Source of the DNA: Veillonella criceti
Lineage (GTDB): Bacteria > Bacillota > Negativicutes > Veillonellales > Veillonellaceae
DNA: 64,000 nt
NCBI RefSeq assembly: GCF_900460315.1
Contig: NZ_UHIO01000001.1
Span: forward strand, 1,378,501 to 1,442,500
Direction: 5' to 3'
Shown in pieces: positions 5,350 through 61,397 of the stretch. Every line of letters starts with the position of its first letter. Position 1 is the stretch's first letter. The notes beneath the pieces are model-generated. The model saw nothing but the letters and a program-made list of their open reading frames with translations, was not told the DNA's origin and ran no database searches. The position numbers and the translations under genes were made by a program.

Positions 5350-6282
5350 ATGAAACTTCTATTTAAATTATTACTAACACTTATCGTATTAGGGCTTGGC
5401 TTATACTGGTTTGCAGGCTATACCCCTGAAGACACTAATACACCTCGAAGCCCTCATACACAGCGCGAAGAATCTCTTGAATCTACAGAAGACCAACTAA
5501 GTCGTACAGAGCGTATTAATCGTTTATTCCATTTTAAAGAGGCTGTACAAACAGCCCTTCATAACCGTGTGCCTCAAAATCAACAAGTGAAAGGAGACCA
5601 AATTAGCACACACTTAAAAGAAGCGCTCGTAGCAACAGAAGACAAACGCTTTTATGATCACGGCGCTATTGATGTATTTGGTATTGGCCGTGCCTTTTAT
5701 ACCAATGTGACAGCTGGTAAAACCGTAGAAGGCGGTAGCACCATTACGCAACAATTAGTAAAAAACCTATTTCTATCATCAAAACGAATTATGTCGCGTA
5801 AAGTAGAGGAAGTTATTTTAGCGTATTTAATGGAATACTATTATACCAAGGATGAAATCTTAGCCATGTATTTAAATACAATCTATTATGGCAATGATTA
5901 TTATGGTATTTACCAAGCTAGTAACGGTTATTTTGACACTACACCGGCCCATTTAACCTTAGGCCAATCAGCCTTATTAGCGGGTTTACCACAAGCCCCA
6001 TCCTACTATAATCCTATTAAAAATTATAAAGTTGCCAAAGAGCGACAACGAACGGTGTTAACCTTAATGGCACAACAAGGAATCATTTCTAATCGCGAAG
6101 CAGATAAAGCCTATTATTCAAATTTACAATTAACTAGTGGCGAGACGGACTCTACTGATTATTCAAATACAGAACTAGAGTCTAAAACAACAACAGATTC
6201 TAATTCTACTTCACGTACAAGTAAATCAAGTCACCCCTCCAGCCATTCCTCATCCCCCGATAAATTCAGTCTTGATGAGTAA
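5350..6282 (+). CDS. Monofunctional peptidoglycan glycosyltransferase (GT51)
   Basis: The 310-residue protein polymerises lipid II into glycan strands at the outer face of the membrane. It has one N-terminal membrane helix (about residues 3-23), then a GT51 domain with catalytic glutamate in ATEDKRFYDH (E97), GGSTITQQLVKN (128-139) and the NTIYYGNDYYGI motif. There is no transpeptidase domain; the chain ends with a Ser/Thr-rich, probably disordered tail. The ribosome site is weak; a TATGAT at 5338-5343 sits close to the ATG, so a very short leader is possible. It could also be described as a truncated class A PBP, but the length suits mtgA-like enzymes. Confidence 0.85.
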   Translation: MKLLFKLLLTLIVLGLGLYWFAGYTPEDTNTPRSPHTQREESLESTEDQLSRTERINRLFHFKEAVQTALHNRVPQNQQVKGDQISTHLKEALVATEDKRFYDHGAIDVFGIGRAFYTNVTAGKTVEGGSTITQQLVKNLFLSSKRIMSRKVEEVILAYLMEYYYTKDEILAMYLNTIYYGNDYYGIYQASNGYFDTTPAHLTLGQSALLAGLPQAPSYYNPIKNYKVAKERQRTVLTLMAQQGIISNREADKAYYSNLQLTSGETDSTDYSNTELESKTTTDSNSTSRTSKSSHPSSHSSSPDKFSLDE

Positions 6283-6305
6283 TAAACACCATAAATTCCA
6301 TATGT

Positions 6306-6346
6306 AAAAAAGTCTACGCTCCATAGATTGTGTGCGTAGACTTTTT
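6306..6346. terminator. Bidirectional terminator hairpin, copy 1
   Basis: AAAAAGTCTACGC (ending 6319) pairs with GCGTAGACTTTTT (6334-6346), flanked by A and T runs. A nearly identical element lies at 7102-7140 on the other side of the XRE gene. Confidence 0.85.
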
Positions 6347-6479
6347 ATATTACACTTACTATGAAAGACGTCTTTAAATTGCTATCTTGCTAACAACAAT
6401 TAGTTTTAATTTTAGCACAATCATTAAAACAGCAAAGATAAATTAACTATAAATTTATTGTCCCCAAACAGGAGTTATT

Positions 6480-7073
6480 ATGGATACAGAAAAAATTGGA
6501 CAATTGATTTCTCAATTGCGCAAGGAAAAACAATTAACACAACAACAATTAGCTGAGGCACTTCATATCACCAACAAAACCATATCTAAATGGGAATGTG
6601 GTAAAGGCATTCCTGATATCACACTATGGGAGCCATTAGCCCAACTATTAGGCGCAGATATCTTAAAACTTTTACAAGGAAATTTATCACTTAATACTAT
6701 AGATACTGGTAATATACGTCGTTTAAAAATATTTGTATGCCCTCATTGTGGTAATATTCTAACTAGTACTAGCACAACTACGATTACCTGTTGCGGACGC
6801 TCACTGACAGCCCTAACAGCTATGTTAAATGATACCACTCATAAACCAAACGTAATTAGTATTGACGGTGCTAACTATCTAACTTTTACTCACACCATGA
6901 CGAAAGAAGAATATATATATTTTGTAGCTTATATATATGACGATTTTATTTGGCTACAAAGATTATATCCAGAACAAGAACCAGCTATACAATTACCTCG
7001 CTTAAAGCGTGGCGGAAAATTATTAGTCTATTGTTTAAATCACGGTCTTTTTTCCTATCAGCATATAATATAA
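6480..7073 (+). CDS. XRE-family regulator with desulfoferrodoxin-like C-terminal domain
   Basis: The 197-residue protein starts with a Cro/C1-type helix-turn-helix (about residues 7-60, QQQLAEALHITNKTISKWE). A second domain follows with CPHCGN and CCGR cysteine pairs (about 88-104) and a HTMTKEEYIYFVAYIYDD segment, ending in CLNHGLF. This arrangement occurs in Firmicutes regulators whose C-terminal part resembles desulfoferrodoxin. Metal binding and redox or metal sensing are inferred. It is a single-gene unit between two copies of the same terminator hairpin, with GGAGTTATT before the ATG. Target genes are not evident. Confidence 0.75.
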   Translation: MDTEKIGQLISQLRKEKQLTQQQLAEALHITNKTISKWECGKGIPDITLWEPLAQLLGADILKLLQGNLSLNTIDTGNIRRLKIFVCPHCGNILTSTSTTTITCCGRSLTALTAMLNDTTHKPNVISIDGANYLTFTHTMTKEEYIYFVAYIYDDFIWLQRLYPEQEPAIQLPRLKRGGKLLVYCLNHGLFSYQHII

Positions 7074-7101
7074 ACTTACAATTTTAAATTTATATAACAA
7101 T

Positions 7102-7140
7102 AAAAGTCTACGCTCCATAAATTGGATGCGTAGACTTTTT
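7102..7140. terminator. Bidirectional terminator hairpin, copy 2
   Basis: AAAAGTCTACGC (7102-7113) pairs with GCGTAGACTTTTT (7128-7140). It ends the XRE gene on the plus strand and the selenium operon on the minus strand, and repeats copy 1 almost exactly, including the CTCCATA loop start. Confidence 0.85.
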
Positions 7141-7174
7141 CATTAGTCAAGTAAAGTAGTGCCATACGAATTAT

Positions 7175-7429
7175 CTATAGCACAGTTAATTTACTACACT
7201 TTTTCGCAGCTCGATCATACTCATATACACCAGAATGCGATACCCGCGCCTCTTTTAAAACGGCAAGGACTCGTACTAAATCATCTTTAGCACATAAAAT
7301 ACATAAACCACACGCATGATGTAAAACTGCTGGTGTCGGAATTAATTGCAACTTAATATCAGCTGCTTTTAATACTTTCTCAGCCTTGGTAGCAAAATAA
7401 TAATCTGTAAAAACAATTAAAAGCTCCAT
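7175..7429 (-). CDS. DUF3343 protein (putative Se/S carrier)
   Basis: The protein of 84 residues fits the DUF3343 family, whose members frequently accompany selD/yedF genes and are described as putative Se/S carrier-like proteins. Visible features are ELLIVFTDYYFATKAEKVLKA and the HHACGLCILCA segment with three cysteines. The ATG at 7429 is chosen because GAGGA lies eight bases upstream; five codons earlier there is an ATG without such a site. It is the last gene of the selenium operon. Its exact role is not known. Confidence 0.75.
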   Translation of the reverse strand: MELLIVFTDYYFATKAEKVLKAADIKLQLIPTPAVLHHACGLCILCAKDDLVRVLAVLKEARVSHSGVYEYDRAAKKCSKLTVL

Positions 7430-7465
7430 ACGCAGTGTCCTCATATAATCGATTATTCAATATTT

Positions 7466-8161
7466 TTATAGCGTTATCATTGACTCCATCATCATGGCAT
7501 CTGTAACAGCATATAAATTTGTAATAGAACCGACTGCCACTTTTTCTTTTAAGCCATAAAAATCTAAACAAATGCCACAAGCTGCTATTTCAACCCCTGC
7601 GTCAACCAATTTCTGAAGATTTTCTAAATGTTCAGATTCTTCGGTTACCATTTTAACACCACTATTGATAAAGAATACTTTAGCTGGCTTTACGTCCGCC
7701 TCGGTTAAACAAAACCAAAAGGTCTTCATCAATGTGCGACCTAATTCTTGATTACCTTCTCCTAAGTAATCTTTGGTTGCCAACAATACTTTACCGCCCA
7801 CTGAGGCTGGTGTATCTAACATGGCCATAGTAGCCGGTGTTTCTACCAAAGTCACACCATCACCTATTGGAGTTTCATCTGTAACAGTAACAGGTATTAA
7901 TGTTACATAAAAATCAGCCCCATCAGCCGTTATCGTTACATTACACTGACGAGATTGCCCAAATTTAGCTACATTATCACGACTTACTTCATTATCTACA
8001 ATAGTCGTAAATACAGCGCCAGGATGGTCTTCCATAGCTTTTTTCGTTTCAATTACTGGCGTTGGACATAATGAACCACGCACATCCACTACTATATTAT
8101 TAGCACCTACTAAGGCTGTATTAACTATTTTGTTATTATCTTTATTTAACATATACTGCAT
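7466..8161 (-). CDS. yedF: YedF-type selenium metabolism sulfurtransferase-like protein
   Basis: The 231-residue protein joins a TusA/SirA-like N-terminal domain with the conserved CPTP motif (LCPTPVIETKKAM, Cys32) to a DsrE-like domain ending in CGICLDFYGL. This matches the sulfurtransferase-like selenium metabolism protein YedF family. It overlaps the end of selD by 20 bases, so the two are translationally coupled. AAAGGAG lies three bases before the ATG at 8161 and twelve before a second ATG at 8152; either may be used. A role in selenium delivery is inferred from the family and neighbours. Confidence 0.82.
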   Translation of the reverse strand: MQYMLNKDNNKIVNTALVGANNIVVDVRGSLCPTPVIETKKAMEDHPGAVFTTIVDNEVSRDNVAKFGQSRQCNVTITADGADFYVTLIPVTVTDETPIGDGVTLVETPATMAMLDTPASVGGKVLLATKDYLGEGNQELGRTLMKTFWFCLTEADVKPAKVFFINSGVKMVTEESEHLENLQKLVDAGVEIAACGICLDFYGLKEKVAVGSITNLYAVTDAMMMESMITL

Positions 8162-9182
8162 ACTCTCCTTTCACTGCAACATGACCAATATGGCGTGCCT
8201 GTGTCAGCCCTGCCTGCTTTAATGCCAATAACAAAGCATCCCTTTCCTCAGCAGGTACGGCTAACAATAATCCTCCTGACGTCTGCGGATCATAACAAAT
8301 ATCACTCCACACAGGAGCCAATTTTTCAAATCCGGTCACCGATGTAATGGCCTTACGATTGCCATAAGTCGCCGCCGGCACTAAGCCCATTTCAGCAGCT
8401 TCAATAGCGCCAGTAAACAAAGGCAATGCTTCCGTTTGAAGCACAATAGATACGCCACTGCCCTCTGCCATTTCACAACTATGACCAAGCAAACTAAAGC
8501 CCGTAATATCTGTACAGGCATGTACAGTAAAGGCTTGTGCCATCTCACGAGCCTCTTTATTTAAGGTCCCCATACTCTGAGTAGCTTCCTCTGTTCCAGC
8601 CTGAAATAAATCCCCTTTCAAGGCTGTACTCATAATACCCGTGCCCAGCGGTTTCGTAAGAATCAATACGTCACCAACTTGCGCCCCACTATTACGCCAT
8701 ATGTTATGAGGATTCACATGACCAGTCACGGACATACCAAAAATAGGAGTTTCATTTTCAATACTATGGCCCCCCACGACTACAACCTGAGCTTCTTTTA
8801 ATACGCTCATAGCGCCTTCTAAAACAGCAGTCAATGCACCTTGCTCTACCAAAGGCACGGGAAATCCTACTAAATTCATAGCCGTCAGTGGAGTACCTCC
8901 CATAGCATATACATCACTCAAGCTATTGGCTGCTGCAATTCGACCAAACAGATATGGATCATCCACAATAGGCGTAAAAAAATCAACAGTCTGTACCAAC
9001 GCCATGTCATTACTTATTTGATATACACCTGCATCATCAGAGCCTTGCATATTAACCAAAACAGATTCATTGGTTGGGAATTCTAAGCCAGTTAAGACAG
9101 ACTGCAAAATGTGAGGACCTAACTTACAGGCACAGCCACCTTTAGCAGCATAATTCGTCAATTTAACCAAATTACTCACCAC
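8142..9182 (-). CDS. selD: Selenide, water dikinase (selenophosphate synthetase)
   Basis: The 346-residue enzyme makes selenophosphate from selenide and ATP. The catalytic segment is GGCACKLGP, with Cys17 and Lys20 at the same numbers as in the E. coli enzyme, so the active site is cysteine rather than selenocysteine. AIRS-type motifs GSDDAGVY and VVGGHSIENETP follow. The GTG at 9182 overlaps the end of the DUF951 gene; GTG at 9179 and a TTG at 9173 are alternatives. Downstream partners are yedF and DUF3343. No selA, selB or tRNA-Sec is seen in this window, so the selenium end product is undetermined. Confidence 0.93.
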   Translation of the reverse strand: MVSNLVKLTNYAAKGGCACKLGPHILQSVLTGLEFPTNESVLVNMQGSDDAGVYQISNDMALVQTVDFFTPIVDDPYLFGRIAAANSLSDVYAMGGTPLTAMNLVGFPVPLVEQGALTAVLEGAMSVLKEAQVVVVGGHSIENETPIFGMSVTGHVNPHNIWRNSGAQVGDVLILTKPLGTGIMSTALKGDLFQAGTEEATQSMGTLNKEAREMAQAFTVHACTDITGFSLLGHSCEMAEGSGVSIVLQTEALPLFTGAIEAAEMGLVPAATYGNRKAITSVTGFEKLAPVWSDICYDPQTSGGLLLAVPAEERDALLLALKQAGLTQARHIGHVAVKGEYAVYVK

Positions 9183-9438
9183 CTAAAGGGTCTACTTTAC
9201 CATTTGCCGGAGTCTGTGCATTCGCTCCATCTAAGGTCCCTTCTTGCACTACACGACTAACAATTTTCTTTACAGCTTTCTCAAACTTAGGACGAGCAAT
9301 CATCACTTGATGCCCACAACCACGACACACTATGGTAAAGTCAGTACCAATACGACGAACTTCCCATTCATCACTACCACAAGGATGTGATTTTTTCATT
9401 TTCACCACATCACCTACATAATATCGTACAAATGCCAT
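9172..9438 (-). CDS. DUF951 family protein
   Basis: The 88-residue protein contains a DUF951 core: YYVGDVVKMKKSHPCGSDEWEV, RIGTDFTIVCRGCGHQVMI and PKFEKAVKK. Two cysteine pairs could hold a metal. Family members are about 60-70 residues, so the C-terminal 20 residues are an extension. The start at 9438 is fixed by AAGGAGG; longer readings lack a ribosome site. It is the first gene of the selenium operon and overlaps selD by 11 bases. The function is unknown. Confidence 0.75.
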   Translation of the reverse strand: MAFVRYYVGDVVKMKKSHPCGSDEWEVRRIGTDFTIVCRGCGHQVMIARPKFEKAVKKIVSRVVQEGTLDGANAQTPANGKVDPLGGE

Positions 9439-10000
9439 AGTTGCCTCCTTAACCACATTCACCACTACTACGTCCAATAATTCTAAATACATTCAATACT
9501 ATAGCCATCCTATGTAAGGTGCTATTCTCTATACGTATATCTTACTATTTTGATTCTTTTATACTTTATATTATATACTGAATCAAACTTTATGCGTACT
9601 TTTTTCTACTATTGAAATAGTTTCTACTATACACTATGTATGGTATATAAAAATATATTCTGTACTACACGTAGTAGATTTCTTTTTTAATTCCTACTAA
9701 AATTTAGGATATTCTCATTGAACTTCTTTACAAAGCGATATCAATTCTCATTTACACAAACAGCTTAATTATCCCTTTATCCAGTAACGAATATCCCAAA
9801 ATGCCAGCAAAATCAAGCATTGATAAACATTATCAAATAAATATTTTTTGACTCTTTTCGATTTTAGCACTTGATTTTCTCATTTTCATAGTCTATAATG
9901 TAATCAACAATGATTATTCATTAGTTTGAATTGTTGTAAACATTATAAAGTGTATTTCTAAGCTATTTAATTTTTTACTTCATTTTGTAAGTACATTATG
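9439..10000. other. AT-rich intergenic region between selenium operon and rubrerythrin
   Basis: No gene was found. The short inverted repeat AATGA-TTAT-TCATT (9909-9922) is loosely like a PerR/Fur half-box arrangement, and ACTAC-AC-GTAGT occurs near 9663. Promoters for both flanking units must lie here, but I could not fix the boxes. Confidence 0.3.
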
Positions 10001-10022
10001 ATTGTAGTAAAGTTACTACAAT
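10001..10022. promoter_or_regulatory. 22-bp palindrome before rubrerythrin
   Basis: ATTGTAGTAA (10001-10010) and TTACTACAAT (10013-10022) form a perfect inverted repeat with a 2-bp centre, ending just before the AAGGAGAG ribosome site. It is a likely operator; the TACTACA/TGTAGTA-like half-sites recall BlaI/CopY-type boxes, but the regulator is unknown. Confidence 0.55.
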
Positions 10023-10039
10023 AAGAAGGAGAGATTAAC

Positions 10040-10588
10040 ATGTCTGAATTAAAAGGTACAAAAACAGAACAAAATTTACAAGCCGCTTTTGCTGGTGAAT
10101 CCCAAGCTAACCGCAAATATACTTACTACGCTTCTGCAGCTCGCAAAGCTGGTTTAAACAAAATTGCTGATTATTTTGAAGAAACTGCTTTGAACGAAAG
10201 CGCTCATGCTAAAGTATGGTTCAAATTATTGCATGGTGGCGACGTAAACGCTGATGTAGTTGTCAACTTAAAAGATGCAGCTGCTGGTGAAAACTACGAA
10301 CACACTGAAATGTACCCTGAATTCGCTAAAGTAGCAAAAGAAGAAGGCTTCACTAAAATTGCTTACTTATTTGAACAAGTTGGTAAAATCGAAGCTCGTC
10401 ACGAACAACGTTATCTTGACTTGGTAGAATATGTAAATGGTGGCCGTGTATTCAAACGCGAACAGCCAGTAGCATGGATTTGTGCAAACTGTGGTTACAT
10501 TCATGTAGGTACAGAAGCTCCTCAAGTTTGCCCAGTATGTGCTCACCCACAAGCATTCTTCTCCCAACACATCGAAACAACTTTATAA
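10040..10588 (+). CDS. rbr: Rubrerythrin
   Basis: The 182-residue protein reduces hydrogen peroxide in anaerobes. A ferritin-like diiron domain (AGESQANRKYTYYA, EETALNESAHAKVW, EQVGKIEARHEQRY) is followed by a rubredoxin-type domain with CANCGY and CPVCAHP that holds one iron. The length and domain order are typical. AAGGAGAG lies well before the ATG. It is a single-gene unit preceded by a perfect 22-bp palindrome and followed by hairpins and a strong terminator; strong codon bias suggests high expression. Confidence 0.96.
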   Translation: MSELKGTKTEQNLQAAFAGESQANRKYTYYASAARKAGLNKIADYFEETALNESAHAKVWFKLLHGGDVNADVVVNLKDAAAGENYEHTEMYPEFAKVAKEEGFTKIAYLFEQVGKIEARHEQRYLDLVEYVNGGRVFKREQPVAWICANCGYIHVGTEAPQVCPVCAHPQAFFSQHIETTL

Positions 10589-10758
10589 TTTAAAACAAAC
10601 TGTGCCATACACAGTACTCAAGTGAGCTATTCATTATAAAAGCAAGTGCTAATTTTTACATAATCAAGTGTTCTATTACTGATTTAACTTTAGTCCCTAG
10701 CATATGAGGAATAAGTATTTCCTTCCTATTATATATTTTGAAAGTTCAATTAGTACTA

Positions 10759-10800
10759 ACGCCAAGTGGCGTCCTATATGATTTGAAACCAAGTGGTTTC
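10759..10800. other. Two small hairpins with AAGTGG cores
   Basis: ACGCCAAGTGGCGT (10759-10772) and GAAACCAAGTGGTTTC (10785-10800) are consecutive short inverted repeats sharing a CCAAGTGG core, in the 3' region of the rubrerythrin transcript before the terminator. They may stabilise the mRNA; this is inference. Confidence 0.45.
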
Positions 10801-10815
10801 CATAGTAACAGTACG

Positions 10816-10845
10816 AGAAAAAGCCCCCAATTGGGGGCTTTTTCT
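10816..10845. terminator. Bidirectional terminator between rbr and modC
   Basis: A perfect palindrome AAAAAGCCCCC/GGGGGCTTTTT lies between convergent genes; it ends both units. Confidence 0.93.
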
Positions 10846-10856
10846 TATATTATCTA

Positions 10857-11486
10857 CTATTGTGTCCCCTTAAGGACACCCTTTTCAAAATACCAATGAT
10901 TATGACCCACTATTTGTGCTTCCTCCTCATCATGAGTCACCCACAAGCAAGGAATATTCCACTCTTTAATAATGTCCACAATATCAGCTTGCACTTGATG
11001 ACGCAATGTCCAGTCTAATGCAGATAAAGGCTCATCGAGCAACAATATACAAGGCTTAGCATACAAAGCTCGGCCTAAAGCTACCCGTTGCTGTTCACCA
11101 CCAGATAACTTACCAGCTTTCGTATGGCTATATCGCTCTAGTTGTAGCCGTTCCATAATCCGGGCCAACAAAACTTCATCGCCTCGTTTACTATACGTAA
11201 TATTTTGCAAAACACTCATATGAGGAAAAATAATATTCCCCTGTGGCATATATCCAACCTGACGCTGTTGTGGCTTTAAAAAGATTTTTTCAGATTTATT
11301 AAACCAATATACATCATCCTGCTTAATATAACCGCTCTTAGGTTTTATTAAACCAGCCAAACTCTTGATTAATGTGGATTTGCCATTACCCGATGCACCG
11401 GTTAGTGCCGTAATCCCTGCACCAAGAGAACCTGCTCCTTGTATTAAAATAGTAGGCCGTTGTACGGCTATATCAAAACATATCAT
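10857..11486 (-). CDS. modC: Molybdate ABC transporter ATPase
   Basis: The 209-residue ATPase has Walker [10 protein letters not shown], signature [15 protein letters not shown] and Walker B ILLLDEP followed by a switch histidine in VTHDEEE. It powers molybdate import. It lacks the C-terminal MOP/TOBE domain of E. coli ModC and so is a short version. It follows modB by 11 bases, with AGGAGG before the ATG. The imported molybdate is needed by the NarGHI nitrate reductase encoded later in the window. Confidence 0.88.
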
Positions 11487-11497
11487 ATCCGTACCTC

Positions 11498-12166
11498 CTA
11501 GCGTTCTTCTTCATATTTAAACAATGACCCCTTCGTAATAAAATGTACAGTCCAAAGGAGGCCTAATGTAAGTGCACAAATATAAATAACTAACTCAAAA
11601 GCTCCCGCATAATCGCCAAACTCTACTAATGAATAAATGGCTAATGGCATCGTTCTAGTTACACCAGGAATATTGCCAGCAATTAATATAGTGGCGCCAA
11701 ATTCTCCCAGGGCGCGACTAAAAGCCAAAATGCTCCCTGTCAAAATTCCTTTCCAAGCCAAAGGAATAGAAATTGTTAAAAAGATACGCCACTCCGAAGC
11801 CCCTAATGTACGAGCTACATCTTCTACTGAAGAATCAATAGAACCTAATGCCGTGCGCACCGTTTGATAAAATAAAGGAAACCCAATAATAGAAGAGGCC
11901 AGAATCGCGCCTACTTTAGAAAACACCACTTGCCAGCCATACATATCTAACCAAGCACCCAACGCACTTCCAGGTGTAAATACTAATAATAAGGCAAATC
12001 CCACTACCACAGGTGGCAATACAAGTGGCAGGGTCACAATCGAATCGATTAACGCTTTACCAGGAAAGCGATACCGTTTCAAAATATAACAAAGCAATAA
12101 GCCCCCTATGACTATATTACAGAGAGCAATGCTTGCTACCTCTAGCGATAGCCATAAAGGGCTCAT
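11498..12166 (-). CDS. modB: Molybdate ABC transporter permease
   Basis: The 222-residue membrane protein has about five to six helices and the permease coupling loop [25 protein letters not shown], followed by [19 protein letters not shown], which is characteristic of ModB. It sits between modA and modC in one operon. AAAGG lies upstream of the ATG at 12166. Confidence 0.92.
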
Positions 12167-56880: not shown

Positions 56881-56904
56881 GCTGTGTCCCTCCTTATTAC
56901 TTTC

Positions 56905-56947
56905 AGCATACCAAAGGAGGCCTTTAGGTTATGTGATTTTAATCACA
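56905..56947 (-). promoter_or_regulatory. narG promoter with Crp/Fnr-like site
   Basis: TGTGAT-TTTA-ATCACA (56932-56947) is a perfect palindrome. A -10 box TATGCT (56905-56910, minus strand) lies 32 bp away centre to centre, which puts the site near -41.5, the class II activator position. No good -35 box exists, as expected for an activated promoter. Confidence 0.75.
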
Positions 56948-57015
56948 CAAGATAAATAAATTTAATCCATTTAGACACGTTCCGTTAAATTCTCTAATAA
57001 ACCACTTACATACGT

Positions 57016-57041
57016 AAAAAAGCCGGTGCCAAGACACCGAC
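57016..57041 (-). terminator. Terminator of crp/fnr-family gene
   Basis: On the minus strand GTCGGTG pairs with CACCGGC (one wobble) followed by T6. Confidence 0.8.
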
Positions 57042-57108
57042 TCTAAAATACCTTAAATATATTTTTTAGTTTCTTACTCACAATATGTATATACTCATAG
57101 CTCAGGCC

Positions 57109-57789
57109 CTATGTTAATGAATCTGCTGGTACCAATATTTTAAAATGATTCTTCTCAAATTCGATTAAGCCATCTGCTTGCATACGCGATAACTCCCGCG
57201 TAAGGGCACTGCGATCGACACACAAGTATTCGCTTAAAGCCACTCGACCTAGAGGCACATCAAATTCCATACGCCCCCAAGCTTTGGCCATATACGAAAA
57301 ATACGCCATCAATTTATCACGCAAATTACGCTTCGATACAATTTCCAGTTTTTGTAAAATACGTACATTTTTATCAGCTACCAAAGTCATAATATTTTGC
57401 ACTAACTGACGATAAGGTCCTACATCTTTAGACGCAAAGGCTAATAATTTATCAAAAGGAATATAAAGAGCCGTTACATCTGATGCTGCATAAAAGTTAA
57501 CTAATGATACTTGATTAGAGCTACAAGCAAAAGATTCGCCAAATAAGTCGCCACGATTCATAAAAACTAAAATGGAACGATTTCCCCATATGTCTTCGCT
57601 CATCATATGAACGGTACCTTTAATAATCACGCTAACACAGCGAATTTCTTCTTCGGCTAAGGTAATATAGCCCCCTTTTTTAAAATGTTTGCTATATGCC
57701 CCTATACTCTTTATTACATCATTAAATTCTGTTTCTTGTAATCCGTGAAAGGCTCGTAATTCTTTCACCATTTCAAACGTATACTTCAT
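57109..57789 (-). CDS. Crp/Fnr-family regulator, likely activator of nar genes
   Basis: The 226-residue protein has a cyclic-nucleotide-type beta-roll (about 25-120, FKKGGYITLAEEE, GDLFGESFACSSN), a dimer helix, and a C-terminal winged helix (LGRVALSEYLCVDRSALTRELSRM). It lacks the N-terminal cysteine cluster of FNR; its three scattered cysteines are unlikely to hold 4Fe-4S, so the signal (redox, NO, nitrate or heme) is unknown. The recognition helix SRSALTREL-like differs from E. coli FNR. It lies between narGHJI and narK, whose promoters share one palindrome. The ATG at 57789 follows GAGGTG. Confidence 0.87.
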   Translation of the reverse strand: MKYTFEMVKELRAFHGLQETEFNDVIKSIGAYSKHFKKGGYITLAEEEIRCVSVIIKGTVHMMSEDIWGNRSILVFMNRGDLFGESFACSSNQVSLVNFYAASDVTALYIPFDKLLAFASKDVGPYRQLVQNIMTLVADKNVRILQKLEIVSKRNLRDKLMAYFSYMAKAWGRMEFDVPLGRVALSEYLCVDRSALTRELSRMQADGLIEFEKNHFKILVPADSLT

Positions 57790-57937
57790 ACGTAGCACCT
57801 CAGCCTTATTCTATATCCCGACCAACGCCCTTTCCCTATAAGCATTAATATATTTATTATAGCACATTCGTTACTGCATATCGAAGCTTTTCTATAACAA
57901 CCTATTCTCTCGCCATTTTCTAACAATCTTTTAGTTT

Positions 57938-57980
57938 CGTGATAAATATCACATACAAGGCCTTTTATTTTTCTTATACT
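57938..57980 (+). promoter_or_regulatory. narK promoter with Crp/Fnr-like site
   Basis: CGTGAT-AAAT-ATCACA (57938-57953) is followed by a -10 box TATACT (57975-57980), again 32 bp centre to centre as at narG. The start site would be near 57987, giving a leader of about 245 nt. Confidence 0.72.
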
Positions 57981-58065
57981 CCAATTAGACAAGGACATTT
58001 CATCCTGTCGTACCCTATATAGATAGACGCTAACAACCCTACAATCCTATTTGCGCCTCATCTAT

Positions 58066-58143
58066 TGGCAACCTAGATTGTCGAATCCTAAACCTAATAA
58101 ACATAATGAATATTAACCCTATTTCCCCAGTCTAGGCTTGCCA
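58066..58143 (+). ncRNA. Structured element in the narK 5' leader
   Basis: TGGCAACCTAGATTG (58066-58080) can pair with 58128-58143 over 15 base pairs, with one bulged C (58137) and one G-U pair, closing a 47-nt internal region. A run CAGGGGC follows the helix. It lies wholly inside the predicted narK leader. I do not recognise it as a known riboswitch class. Confidence 0.5.
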
Positions 58144-58233
58144 CAGGGGCTTATTTATTTTAACTTACTATTTTTACCAATATATTTCTAATCGATTAAT
58201 ACTATGTTATTAACACCGAAAAGGAGCCTATGT

Positions 58234-59571
58234 ATGTCAACAACGTCCGACCGTACCGCTTCACTGAGTCGCCGCGAAATCCTAGCTCAGTGGCAGCCAG
58301 ACAATGAACAATTTTGGAATCAATATGGGAAAAAAATTGCAAAACAAAATCTAATTGTATCGACCATTGCCTTAACCATTTCTTTCTGTGTATGGACTTT
58401 ATGGTCAACAATTGCTGTTAAACTTAACGCCATAGGTTTTCATTTTACCGATGAACAGCTTTTTACCCTAGCAGCCATGCCCGGCTTAGTAGGCGCTACA
58501 GGACGCTTAATTTATACCTATATGCCAGGTATCCTAGGTGGCCGAAACTGGACATTTTTCGCTACAGCCCTCTTACTCATTCCATTATGGGGCTTAGCTC
58601 AGGCATTGCAAGATCCTACTACCTCTTATGAAACCTTTTTCATCTATGTAGCCTTATTAGGCATTGCAGGCGCTAACTTTTCTTCTTCTATGGCCAATAT
58701 CGGCCACTTCTTCCCTCGTTCGCAACGGGGTACCGCACTCGGCATCAATGCAGGGATAGGTAATTTAGGGGTATCTATTATCTTTCTCATGGCGCCAATC
58801 GTAATGGGTATGACAATCTTTGCGCCTTTAGTAGGATCCCCTCAAACGATGCAAGATGGGACTATTTTATTCTTACAAAACACTTGTTATGTAGGTATTA
58901 TTCAAATATTAATCACCTTAGGTCTTATTGCGAAATACATGGATAATTTACCATTGCCCAAACAAAGTCCGTCCTCTATGATGAGTATCTTTACTAATAA
59001 ACATACTTGGATTATGACTTGGATTTATACTTGTGGCTTTGGTGCTTTTATTGGTTTTTCCGTAGCTCTTAGTTTATTAGTACAAAAAGAATTCCCTGAA
59101 ATTGCCTTTGCTTACGGTGCTTTCTTAGGGCCTTTCATCGGCGCAGGGATTCGACCTGTTGGTGGCTGGCTCTCTGATAAAATCAATAGCGGTACGACCA
59201 TTACCTTATGGTCATTAGTCGGCATGCTCATCGGCGCTATTTTCATTATGTACGGAATAACAGCCCATAACTTTATTATTTTCTTCTGTGCCTTCTTGTT
59301 CTTATTCTTCATGACAGGCCTTGAAACAGGGGCTTCTTTCCGCATGATTCCCTATATCTTTACTAATGGGATGCAATCTTCCTTAGTAACCGGTTTTACC
59401 GCTGCTATCGGTGCCTATGGCGCCTTCTTTATACCAAAAGTATTTGGCTGGGCTTATAGCACCTATCAGTCCGTTATGCCAGCTTTCTACATCATTCTAG
59501 TCTTTATGGTAATTACTATTTTCTTAACCTATTGGTTCTATGCTCGCAAAGCAGCTGGCATGAAATGCTAA
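58234..59571 (+). CDS. narK: Nitrate/nitrite transporter (NarK family)
   Basis: The 445-residue MFS protein has 12 predicted helices. NarK/NNP marks are the conserved arginine stretch MPGLVGATGRLIYTYMPG, the nitrate signature region GIAGANFSSSMANIGHFFPRSQRGTALGINAGIGNLG in helix 5 (in parts) and ETGASFRMIPYIF later. It imports nitrate or exchanges it for nitrite, serving NarGHI. The ATG at 58234 follows AAAAGGAG by seven bases. It is divergent from the regulator gene. Confidence 0.93.
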   Translation: MSTTSDRTASLSRREILAQWQPDNEQFWNQYGKKIAKQNLIVSTIALTISFCVWTLWSTIAVKLNAIGFHFTDEQLFTLAAMPGLVGATGRLIYTYMPGILGGRNWTFFATALLLIPLWGLAQALQDPTTSYETFFIYVALLGIAGANFSSSMANIGHFFPRSQRGTALGINAGIGNLGVSIIFLMAPIVMGMTIFAPLVGSPQTMQDGTILFLQNTCYVGIIQILITLGLIAKYMDNLPLPKQSPSSMMSIFTNKHTWIMTWIYTCGFGAFIGFSVALSLLVQKEFPEIAFAYGAFLGPFIGAGIRPVGGWLSDKINSGTTITLWSLVGMLIGAIFIMYGITAHNFIIFFCAFLFLFFMTGLETGASFRMIPYIFTNGMQSSLVTGFTAAIGAYGAFFIPKVFGWAYSTYQSVMPAFYIILVFMVITIFLTYWFYARKAAGMKC

Positions 59572-59668: not shown

Positions 59669-59726
59669 TTGACATCGATAATCGTCTATGTTATGATATG
59701 CACATAGCAACGGATAATTATTATAA
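59669..59726 (+). promoter_or_regulatory. dps promoter with PerR-like box
   Basis: TTGACA (59669-59674) and TATGAT (59692-59697) are 17 bp apart. GGATAATTATTATAA (59712-59726) just after the start site matches the PerR box TTATAATNATTATAA at 13 of 15 positions. Confidence 0.75.
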
Positions 59727-59850
59727 ATTAAAAATAATTCCTTGTTATATTAATTAAATTTGAATACTTAACTCTCTATTAAGAGCTAACAAATAGTATG
59801 ATTGAAAGCGACTGATGCCTTATCAGTCACATATTTAGGAGGAAACAATT

Positions 59851-60285
59851 ATGAAAAATGTACAAGAAGTTAACAAATATTTAGCAAATTTAGCCATCTG
59901 GAATGTAAAACTACATAACCTTCATTTCAATGTAGTAGGTTCTCAATTCGTACCAACTCACGAATACCTTGAAAGTGTATACGATAATGCTTTCGAATAC
60001 TACGATGCCGTAGCCGAACTTCTAAAAATGAAAGGCGAAGAACCAGTAGTTCGTGTATCTGAATACTTAAAAATTGCCTCTATCGAGGAATTAGATGGTC
60101 GTAATTTCAGTGTCAAAGAAGTATACGAAATCCTTCAAGGAGATTTCAAACTTATGTCTGACTTAGCCTTAGCTATCCGTAGTGCTGCTGATGAAGAAGA
60201 TAACTTTGCTTTAGTTTCTCTTATGGAAGATCACTTAGCTTATTATGAAAAACAACTTTGGTTTTTACGTGCTAGCTTAGCATAA
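59851..60285 (+). CDS. dps: Dps-family ferritin-like protein
   Basis: The 144-residue protein forms a 12-subunit shell that stores iron and protects DNA from peroxide. The family pattern is KYLANLAIWNVKLHNLHFNVVG, followed by HEYLESVYDNAFEYYDAVAE, giving the intersubunit ferroxidase ligands His, Asp and Glu. AGGAGG precedes the ATG. A PerR-like box in the promoter fits a peroxide response. Confidence 0.93.
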   Translation: MKNVQEVNKYLANLAIWNVKLHNLHFNVVGSQFVPTHEYLESVYDNAFEYYDAVAELLKMKGEEPVVRVSEYLKIASIEELDGRNFSVKEVYEILQGDFKLMSDLALAIRSAADEEDNFALVSLMEDHLAYYEKQLWFLRASLA

Positions 60286-60330
60286 ATCAAAATCCTTTAT
60301 GCCTAACCATATAACGAAACCTTAACATAT

Positions 60331-60371
60331 AAAAGGTGTAACCGAATTCTCCCATCGGTTACACCTTTTTT
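60331..60371. terminator. Bidirectional terminator between dps and AKR genes
   Basis: AAAAGGTGTAACCGA (60331-60345) pairs with TCGGTTACACCTTTT (from 60355), followed by T. Confidence 0.9.
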
Positions 60372-60419
60372 GATTTGTATTATTTTGTATTACATCTCTA
60401 GTGAGATTTCAATCCAACC

Positions 60420-61397
60420 CTATTTATCATTAGGCACTGGAATTGGCCCCATCATTTTATGTGGTACATATAATTCATCTAAATACGTTACTTCTTCAGT
60501 AGTTAATTTTACAGTCAGTGCTTTTACAGCATCCTCTATATGCCTTGCTTTGGTAGCCCCTACAATCGGCGCCGTAATCCCTTTAGCCCATTGCCAAGCC
60601 AAGGCAATTTGTGACATTGTCACTTCATGCGCACTCGCTAATTCTGCCACTCGTTGCACAATTGGTAAATCCTGTGTTTTGGTACTATCATATTTTCGTT
60701 TTGCAATTGTATCAATCTCACTGCGCTTTGTCTGTTCCTGCCAATTTATACGAGCTAAACGACCCCCTGCTAATGGACTATAGGGCATTAGCATAACACC
60801 TTGTTGCTTACAAAGCGGAATCATTTCACGCTCTTCTTCCCGATACAATAAATTATAGTGATTCTCCATAGCCACAAATGGTGTCCAACCATGACGTTCC
60901 GCTACCTGTTGCATTGTATGGAATTGAAACGCAAACATAGAAGAGGCCCCTAAAGCCCTTACTTTTCCTGCTTTTACTAAATTATGTAATGCCTCCATAG
61001 TTTCCTCAATCGGCGTTTCATAATCAAAACGATGAATAATATATAAATCAAGATAGTCCGTGCCTAAACGTTTCAAAGAACCATCTATTTCACGAGCAAT
61101 GGCCTCTTTTGACAATTTGCCATCATTAAAATAGACCTTACTAGCAATAGCCACTTGATCACGAGCTACCAATTTTTTAAGTGCCCGCCCCAAATATTCT
61201 TCACTCGTCCCATCGCCGTATTGATTGGCTGTATCAAAAAAATTAAGACCTAGTTCAAGGGATAACTTAACCATATCATGAGTCTCTTCTGGATTTAAAC
61301 TCCACTTTTGACCAAGCACATCTTTGCCAAAACTCATGCAACCTACGGTAATTGGTGAAATTTTAATATCTGTAGTAGGAATTGTGGTGTAACGCAT
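60420..61397 (-). CDS. Aldo/keto reductase
   Basis: The 325-residue NADPH-dependent TIM-barrel reductase has the catalytic tetrad visible in NFFDTANQYGDG (Asp, Tyr), AIASKVYF (Lys) and YIIHRFDYE (His), and a C-terminal cofactor site GITAPIVGATKARHIEDA. The group is YajO/AKR-like; the substrate is unknown. The ATG at 61397 follows AAAGGAG. Single gene. Confidence 0.92.
   Translation of the reverse strand: MRYTTIPTTDIKISPITVGCMSFGKDVLGQKWSLNPEETHDMVKLSLELGLNFFDTANQYGDGTSEEYLGRALKKLVARDQVAIASKVYFNDGKLSKEAIAREIDGSLKRLGTDYLDLYIIHRFDYETPIEETMEALHNLVKAGKVRALGASSMFAFQFHTMQQVAERHGWTPFVAMENHYNLLYREEEREMIPLCKQQGVMLMPYSPLAGGRLARINWQEQTKRSEIDTIAKRKYDSTKTQDLPIVQRVAELASAHEVTMSQIALAWQWAKGITAPIVGATKARHIEDAVKALTVKLTTEEVTYLDELYVPHKMMGPIPVPNDK

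Follow-up and report, generated by a model that had tools for sequence, protein, structure and literature searches.

The narK gene of the window (the whole 64-kb stretch of DNA analysed here) appears to be preceded by a narrow, lineage-specific, structured leader at the 5' end of its mRNA, which may act in cis by attenuation gated by a helix designated P1; this reading is tentative, and we hold it at a little short of even. The helix first reported from this leader, H2, is predicted to be one part of a larger fold comprising the hairpins H0 and H1, H2 itself and, in two species, P1. The predicted helices exceed chance, the two-species fold is conserved beyond what column shuffles give, and H1 covaries on a hand alignment. 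We have filed the leader as a narrow new case of structured mRNA leader and not as a riboswitch; of known types of expression platform, a plausible terminator was found in Veillonella intestinalis alone. Veillonella are commensals which reduce nitrate, and the narK leader offers a concrete place to study how nitrate/nitrite traffic is controlled after an FNR-type promoter has fired. Being confined to some species of a single genus, it could further illustrate the gain and loss of leader RNAs.

The comparisons rest on a genus set of seven, made up of the window genome and the named species nearest to it: V. intestinalis, Veillonella sp. R32, V. seminalis, V. ratti, Veillonella sp. KGMB01456 and V. 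magna. In the window narK is a plus-strand gene, whereas narG and a gene for a Crp/Fnr-family regulator run in the minus direction. The narK product matches NarU (E 4e-98) and TIGR00886 (E 3e-78), both below the curated cut-off, and also MFS_1, while the regulator is 97% and 96% identical to its counterparts in Veillonella sp. R32 and V. intestinalis, respectively. The position of the palindrome upstream of narK is the usual class II spacing. Both GTGATNNNNRTCAC and TATACTCCA, the latter from the -10 region, were found upstream of narK in all seven genus genomes, and the ribosome-binding sequence AAAGGAG recurs in six of the seven narK leaders, V. magna having AAAGGGG. A simple sigma-70 scan did not list the narK promoter, as is to be expected since this promoter lacks a -35 box; the start at 57987 is a predicted one. 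Given that start, H2 lies, as had been proposed, inside the narK leader, with 90 nt between it and the ATG at 58234. At the V. magna locus (5548–12001) narK and the Crp/Fnr gene are kept, and no narG match turned up within 5.5 kb past the latter.

Table 1. Features of the narK leader and its surroundings (positions in the window).
Feature	Position	Strand	Basis or remark
Crp/Fnr-family regulator gene, divergent from narK	57109..57789	-	cNMP_binding and HTH_Crp_2 over cut-off
FNR/Crp-type palindrome GTGATAAATATCAC	57939..57952	+	centre at -41.5 from predicted +1
-10 box TATACT	57975..57980	+	predicted transcription start ~57987
H0, 5'-terminal hairpin GACA(A)GGA...TCCTGTC	57988..58009	+	pair probability ~0.85 in the window's leader; begins at predicted +2
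P1 5' strand CCCT, predicted to enclose H1 and H2	58013..58016	+	p 0.53 in the window's leader
Seven CCTA (transcript strand), clustered more densely than anywhere else in the window	58014..58121	+	7 in 125 nt; next separate site 5
H1 hairpin, conserved loop CCCTACAAYYCTW at 58037-58049	58019..58065	+	pairs in three species
H2, reported helix; core 58072-58080 with 58128-58136	58066..58143	+	5' arm in three species, both arms in two
P1 3' strand AGGG, then T-rich stretch CTTATTTATTTT	58145..58148	+	sequence and two-species consensus
Shine-Dalgarno AAAGGAG of narK	58220..58226	+	read from sequence
narK, NarK/NarU-type nitrate/nitrite transporter gene	58234..59571	+	profile matches

H2 is exactly the 15 bp helix that had been described, with arms TGGCAA-CCTAGATTG and CAGTCTAGG-C-TTGCCA giving 6 + 9 pairs, a single bulged C at 58137 and one T-G wobble. 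The sequence-only reading had called such a helix unlikely by chance, a statement which stands for helix energy and fails for pair count and for the plain folding of 78-nt windows, where H2 is not extreme. When helices of at least 15 pairs, with at most one interruption, G-U pairs allowed and a span of at most 100, were counted, the 64-kb window held 21 on the plus strand and 107 on the minus strand, where 12 shuffles averaged 10.2; by pair count alone H2 is not rare. At a helix energy of -17.8 kcal/mol or better, the counts were 11 (plus strand) and 44 (minus strand) against a mean of 0.4 per shuffled 64 kb (20 shuffles), and some of the other strong plus-strand helices, e.g. 60331–60369, resemble terminator repeats by eye. 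The span 58066–58143, which was picked for its folding, has a minimum free energy of -20.7 kcal/mol (z -5.6, 0/200 shuffles); among overlapping 78-nt windows on both strands 731 of 15,982 fold as well, and among those matched in GC content 93 of 5,440.

One might suppose that H2 arose by chance or is fading, with selection acting on H0 and H1 alone or on sequence alone. Pair count by itself predicts some 10 helices of this kind in 64 kb, and H2 shows no compensatory changes: both arms occur in only two of the seven genus species, where eight of the nine core pairs are identical and the ninth is a one-sided change (G-U vs A-U), and the Veillonella sp. R32 leader lacks the 3' arm, its 9-nt 5' arm being identical. 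However, the energy of H2 was reached in only 2 of 1,000 shuffles of the narK leader, and two species have retained both 9-nt arms although, over leader positions 176–225, they agree in just 21 of 50 columns. We consider a fortuitous or decaying H2 unlikely. A downstream partner for the orphan 5' arm of Veillonella sp. R32 was sought and rejected; the best duplex (-16.6 kcal/mol) lies far inside the gene and is probably due to chance, the arm-pair duplex in the window's species being -23.7 kcal/mol.

Evidence for the wider fold comes from alignments of two kinds. The covariation counts for H0 and H1 derive from a hand alignment of three species, the same alignment having been fitted to the structure. 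Out of 21 pairs, 10 are invariant, five show compensatory change (four in H1, one in H0) and seven are broken in one species. H0 is the best kept helix, with six invariant pairs; its one compensatory pair is also broken in the third species. In H1 conservation lies more in the loop (10/16 invariant columns) than in the stem (10/28), and for H0 and H1 as a whole, stem (22/42) and unpaired (20/43) columns are equally conserved. The consensus fold of this alignment scores z -10 (0/1000), a value not used as proof because of the fitting. MAFFT alignments, which were not fitted to structure, gave z -4.9 (0/500 column shuffles) for the first 190 nt of the window genome and V. intestinalis, with a consensus containing H0, P1, part of H1 and H2, and z -2.9 (10/1000) for the 114 columns of all three species, in which H0 is in register and H1 is not. 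These column shuffles preserve column types, not dinucleotides. In its own sequence the H1 of the window's species is weak (z -1.6; 35/500 shuffles fold as well). P1, with strands CCCT/AGGG in the window's species and TCCCCT/AGGGGA in V. intestinalis, is predicted with six pairs and p 0.95 in the latter, and is not predicted in the Veillonella sp. R32 leader.

A separate 7.4-kb alignment of two species was scanned in slices, with 60 shuffles per slice and slices having more than 60 gaps in one alignment row left out. The leader stretch scored z -6.6, a value reached by six of 220 slices, all of them over 60294–60502 or 56888–57112, where terminator-like repeats are seen by eye. Overlapping leader slices gave -4.8 and -4.6 on the plus strand vs -2.6 and -4.0 on the minus strand, so that in slice 58025–58211 the opposite strand also scores (-4.0 vs -4.6). 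Folded singly, the leaders were equalled by 5 (window's species), 1 (V. intestinalis), 0 (Veillonella sp. R32), 8 (V. seminalis), 83 (V. ratti), 173 (KGMB01456) and 104 (V. magna) of 300 shuffles. The proposal that H2 belongs to a leader RNA is in this way supported for a structured narK leader, through the kept promoter motifs, the two-species fold and the covariation of H1, and is not supported for H2 itself, which has no compensatory change, one of the two outcomes that had been named beforehand as refuting it.

The leader was found in three of the seven genus genomes (the window genome, V. intestinalis and Veillonella sp. R32), each time only before narK. The three share approximately the first 115 nt from the predicted start, and the other four genus species do not. 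Common to all three are the H2 5' arm CCTAGATTG and, after it, GAAYCCTAAAC; the Veillonella sp. R32 leader is 88 nt shorter, and neither the T-rich stretch nor the 3' parts of H2 and P1 are present in it. A 22-base motif taken from the H2 5' arm matched, with three mismatches allowed, only the narK leaders of these three genus genomes. A covariance model, R1, consisting of H0, H1 and the H2 5' arm gave 113–130 bits for the three narK leaders, and its best score elsewhere in 28 family genomes was 20.7 bits (E 0.44). Among 61 genomes of the order (the 28 family genomes included) it found, under stricter filters, no further match at E ≤ 0.1, and none of the 54 order genomes outside the genus has the leader. 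Plain DNA searching with the leader proved insensitive, missing that of V. intestinalis, and a plasmid collection held no match to it. Upstream open reading frames were also considered and rejected; by eye, none is kept between species.

Homology to the leaders of V. seminalis, V. ratti, KGMB01456 and V. magna was rejected, there being no CCTA and no common arms. The first three of these have a common sequence of their own and possible hairpins (a GAAATAAATC loop and an AGCCG/CGGCT helix). E. coli ompA mRNA has a 5'-terminal stabilising hairpin, to which H0, beginning at the predicted +2, is similar; unlike ompA, the narK leader continues after H0 with a larger fold containing a conserved loop. 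One alternative is a passive leader, in which 5' hairpins, chiefly H0, would only protect the mRNA, the exact fold would matter little and leaders would differ from species to species. The place of H0 and its standing as the best kept helix agree with this, as do the leaders of V. seminalis, V. ratti and KGMB01456, unrelated and yet with predicted hairpins. However, the consensus fold of the latter three leaders is within chance (z -1.2, 61/500), and the three species show little or no variation in the H1 loop and in CCTAGATTG..GAA.CCTAAAC, a constancy for which a mere stabiliser has no need. We regard purely protective hairpins as somewhat unlikely; a leader that did nothing but stabilise would be ordinary.

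What is conserved could instead be the array of CCTA (CCUA) repeats, recognised by a protein either in the RNA or, downstream of the promoter, in the DNA, the hairpins displaying the array or arising from it. The whole leader of the window's species has eight copies (reached in 2/2000 shuffles) and that of Veillonella sp. R32 six (43/2000); three copies stand at matching places in the three leaders and two more in the window's species and Veillonella sp. R32. Against this, the five copies of V. intestinalis are no enrichment (255/2000 shuffles reach that number), the spacing is irregular, the other four genus leaders have none, and there is no candidate protein. A protein-bound array is, in our opinion, improbable. 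Across the whole window CCTA occurs 260 times vs 148 for TAGG.

The attenuated leader which we favour would operate as follows. Transcription would start near 57987 from the FNR-type promoter, and the first ~160 nt would make up H0 and, in the two species where P1 encloses H1 and H2, a three-way junction. A ligand or a protein on the conserved stretches (CCCUACAAYYCUW in the H1 loop, and what follows the 5' arm of H2) may stabilise the junction, with the P1 3' strand AGGGG as the putative switch. In V. intestinalis that strand has another possible pairing, which would give a terminator hairpin ahead of seven U: its sequence contains CTCCTC-AAA-GGGGAG, then TAATTTTTTT, and this hairpin and P1 are mutually exclusive. 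For an RNA ending at the T run the predicted energies are -44.3 kcal/mol with P1 vs -38.3 kcal/mol with the alternative hairpin, the P1 state being favoured. The layout in V. intestinalis corresponds to that of an attenuator having the junction as its antiterminator.

No such terminator was found in the window's species. The remark that H2 itself is not a terminator was sound, a simple scan of 57850–58300 for loops of 3–8 having returned no terminator-like site, and the best forced alternative is worse by ~14 kcal/mol (-39.3 vs -25.5). We therefore infer attenuation for V. intestinalis; in the window's species the arrangement may be derived, fading or put to a different use, and the role of its fold would lie in mRNA stability or in elongation, unless it is a remnant. 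Exchange of strands between P1 and a terminator is the general architecture of attenuator riboswitches. The V. intestinalis junction resembles these in that its closing strand could alternatively form a terminator, and the narK leader differs from them in that it has no recognised aptamer or ligand, that the window's species has no terminator and that just three sequences carry it.

It is scarcely credible that the leader belongs to a known class, be it a riboswitch in Rfam (the Mo-cofactor one or another) or a nitrate antitermination leader bound by ANTAR, such as that of Klebsiella nasF. Rfam, a collection which includes the Mo-cofactor motif, matched in the window only a tRNA elsewhere; at E up to 5 it gave one chance-level match (a plant-virus IRES, on the other strand), and with the three leader loci two chance-level matches. 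As described in PMC3369931, ANTAR nitrate leaders (Klebsiella nasF/NasR) are leader RNAs with alternative hairpins upstream of nitrate genes. A leader RNA ahead of a nitrate gene, narK, is common to both systems, and the genome does encode one ANTAR protein. The ANTAR leaders have two small hexanucleotide-loop hairpins (A first, G fourth) before a terminator, and the window's leader is without them: with stems of at least three pairs none was found in the window's species or in Veillonella sp. R32 (V. intestinalis has two 3-bp candidates), with stems of at least four pairs none in the seven genus leaders, and no second hairpin overlapping an intrinsic terminator was detected in 57850–58300 with loops of 3–8. 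The ANTAR gene is, moreover, ~1 Mb from nar, beside a sensor-kinase-like gene (by eye). No NIT domain was found, a weak absence as control genomes gave none either. The single ANTAR match of the genome is in a response-regulator-like gene (7–2130 of its own locus), which by eye is also upstream of a groES-like gene.

A riboswitch-like leader which directly senses nitrate, nitrite or a related signal, and so gates narK without NarX/NarQ-type kinases, is very unlikely in our estimation. The profile search found no HisKA_3 kinase in the window genome (7 of 14 control genomes matched) and no GerE match over cut-off, only two weak ones; the NarX/NarL-type route therefore looks absent. PMC8199190 places all nitrate/nitrite-sensing kinases in the HisKA_3 class, and the missing kinase also counts in favour of the leader described above as our preferred reading. 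Nitrate or NO could, however, be perceived by the Crp/Fnr protein encoded next to narK, in which case a sensing RNA would be unnecessary. In V. dispar, according to PMC10100942, narK is up in early stationary phase. None of the papers searched mentioned a nitrate or nitrite riboswitch, a narK leader or a nitrate-responsive RNA, and among the titles and abstract openings listed none dealt with a Veillonella narK leader.

Lastly, a Dps-like gene (59851–60285 in the window) follows narK at its 3' side in all three leader-carrying species. It was not found in the stretches after narK examined in V. seminalis, V. ratti and V. magna, that of KGMB01456 being too short, and phylogeny alone could account for its co-occurrence with the leader. 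Before this gene, at 59681–59868, the two-species consensus fold is strong in the minus orientation (z -6.25; plus strand, -2.4), and a hairpin, GACTGATGCCTTATCAGTC, is seen by eye shortly upstream of its ribosome site.
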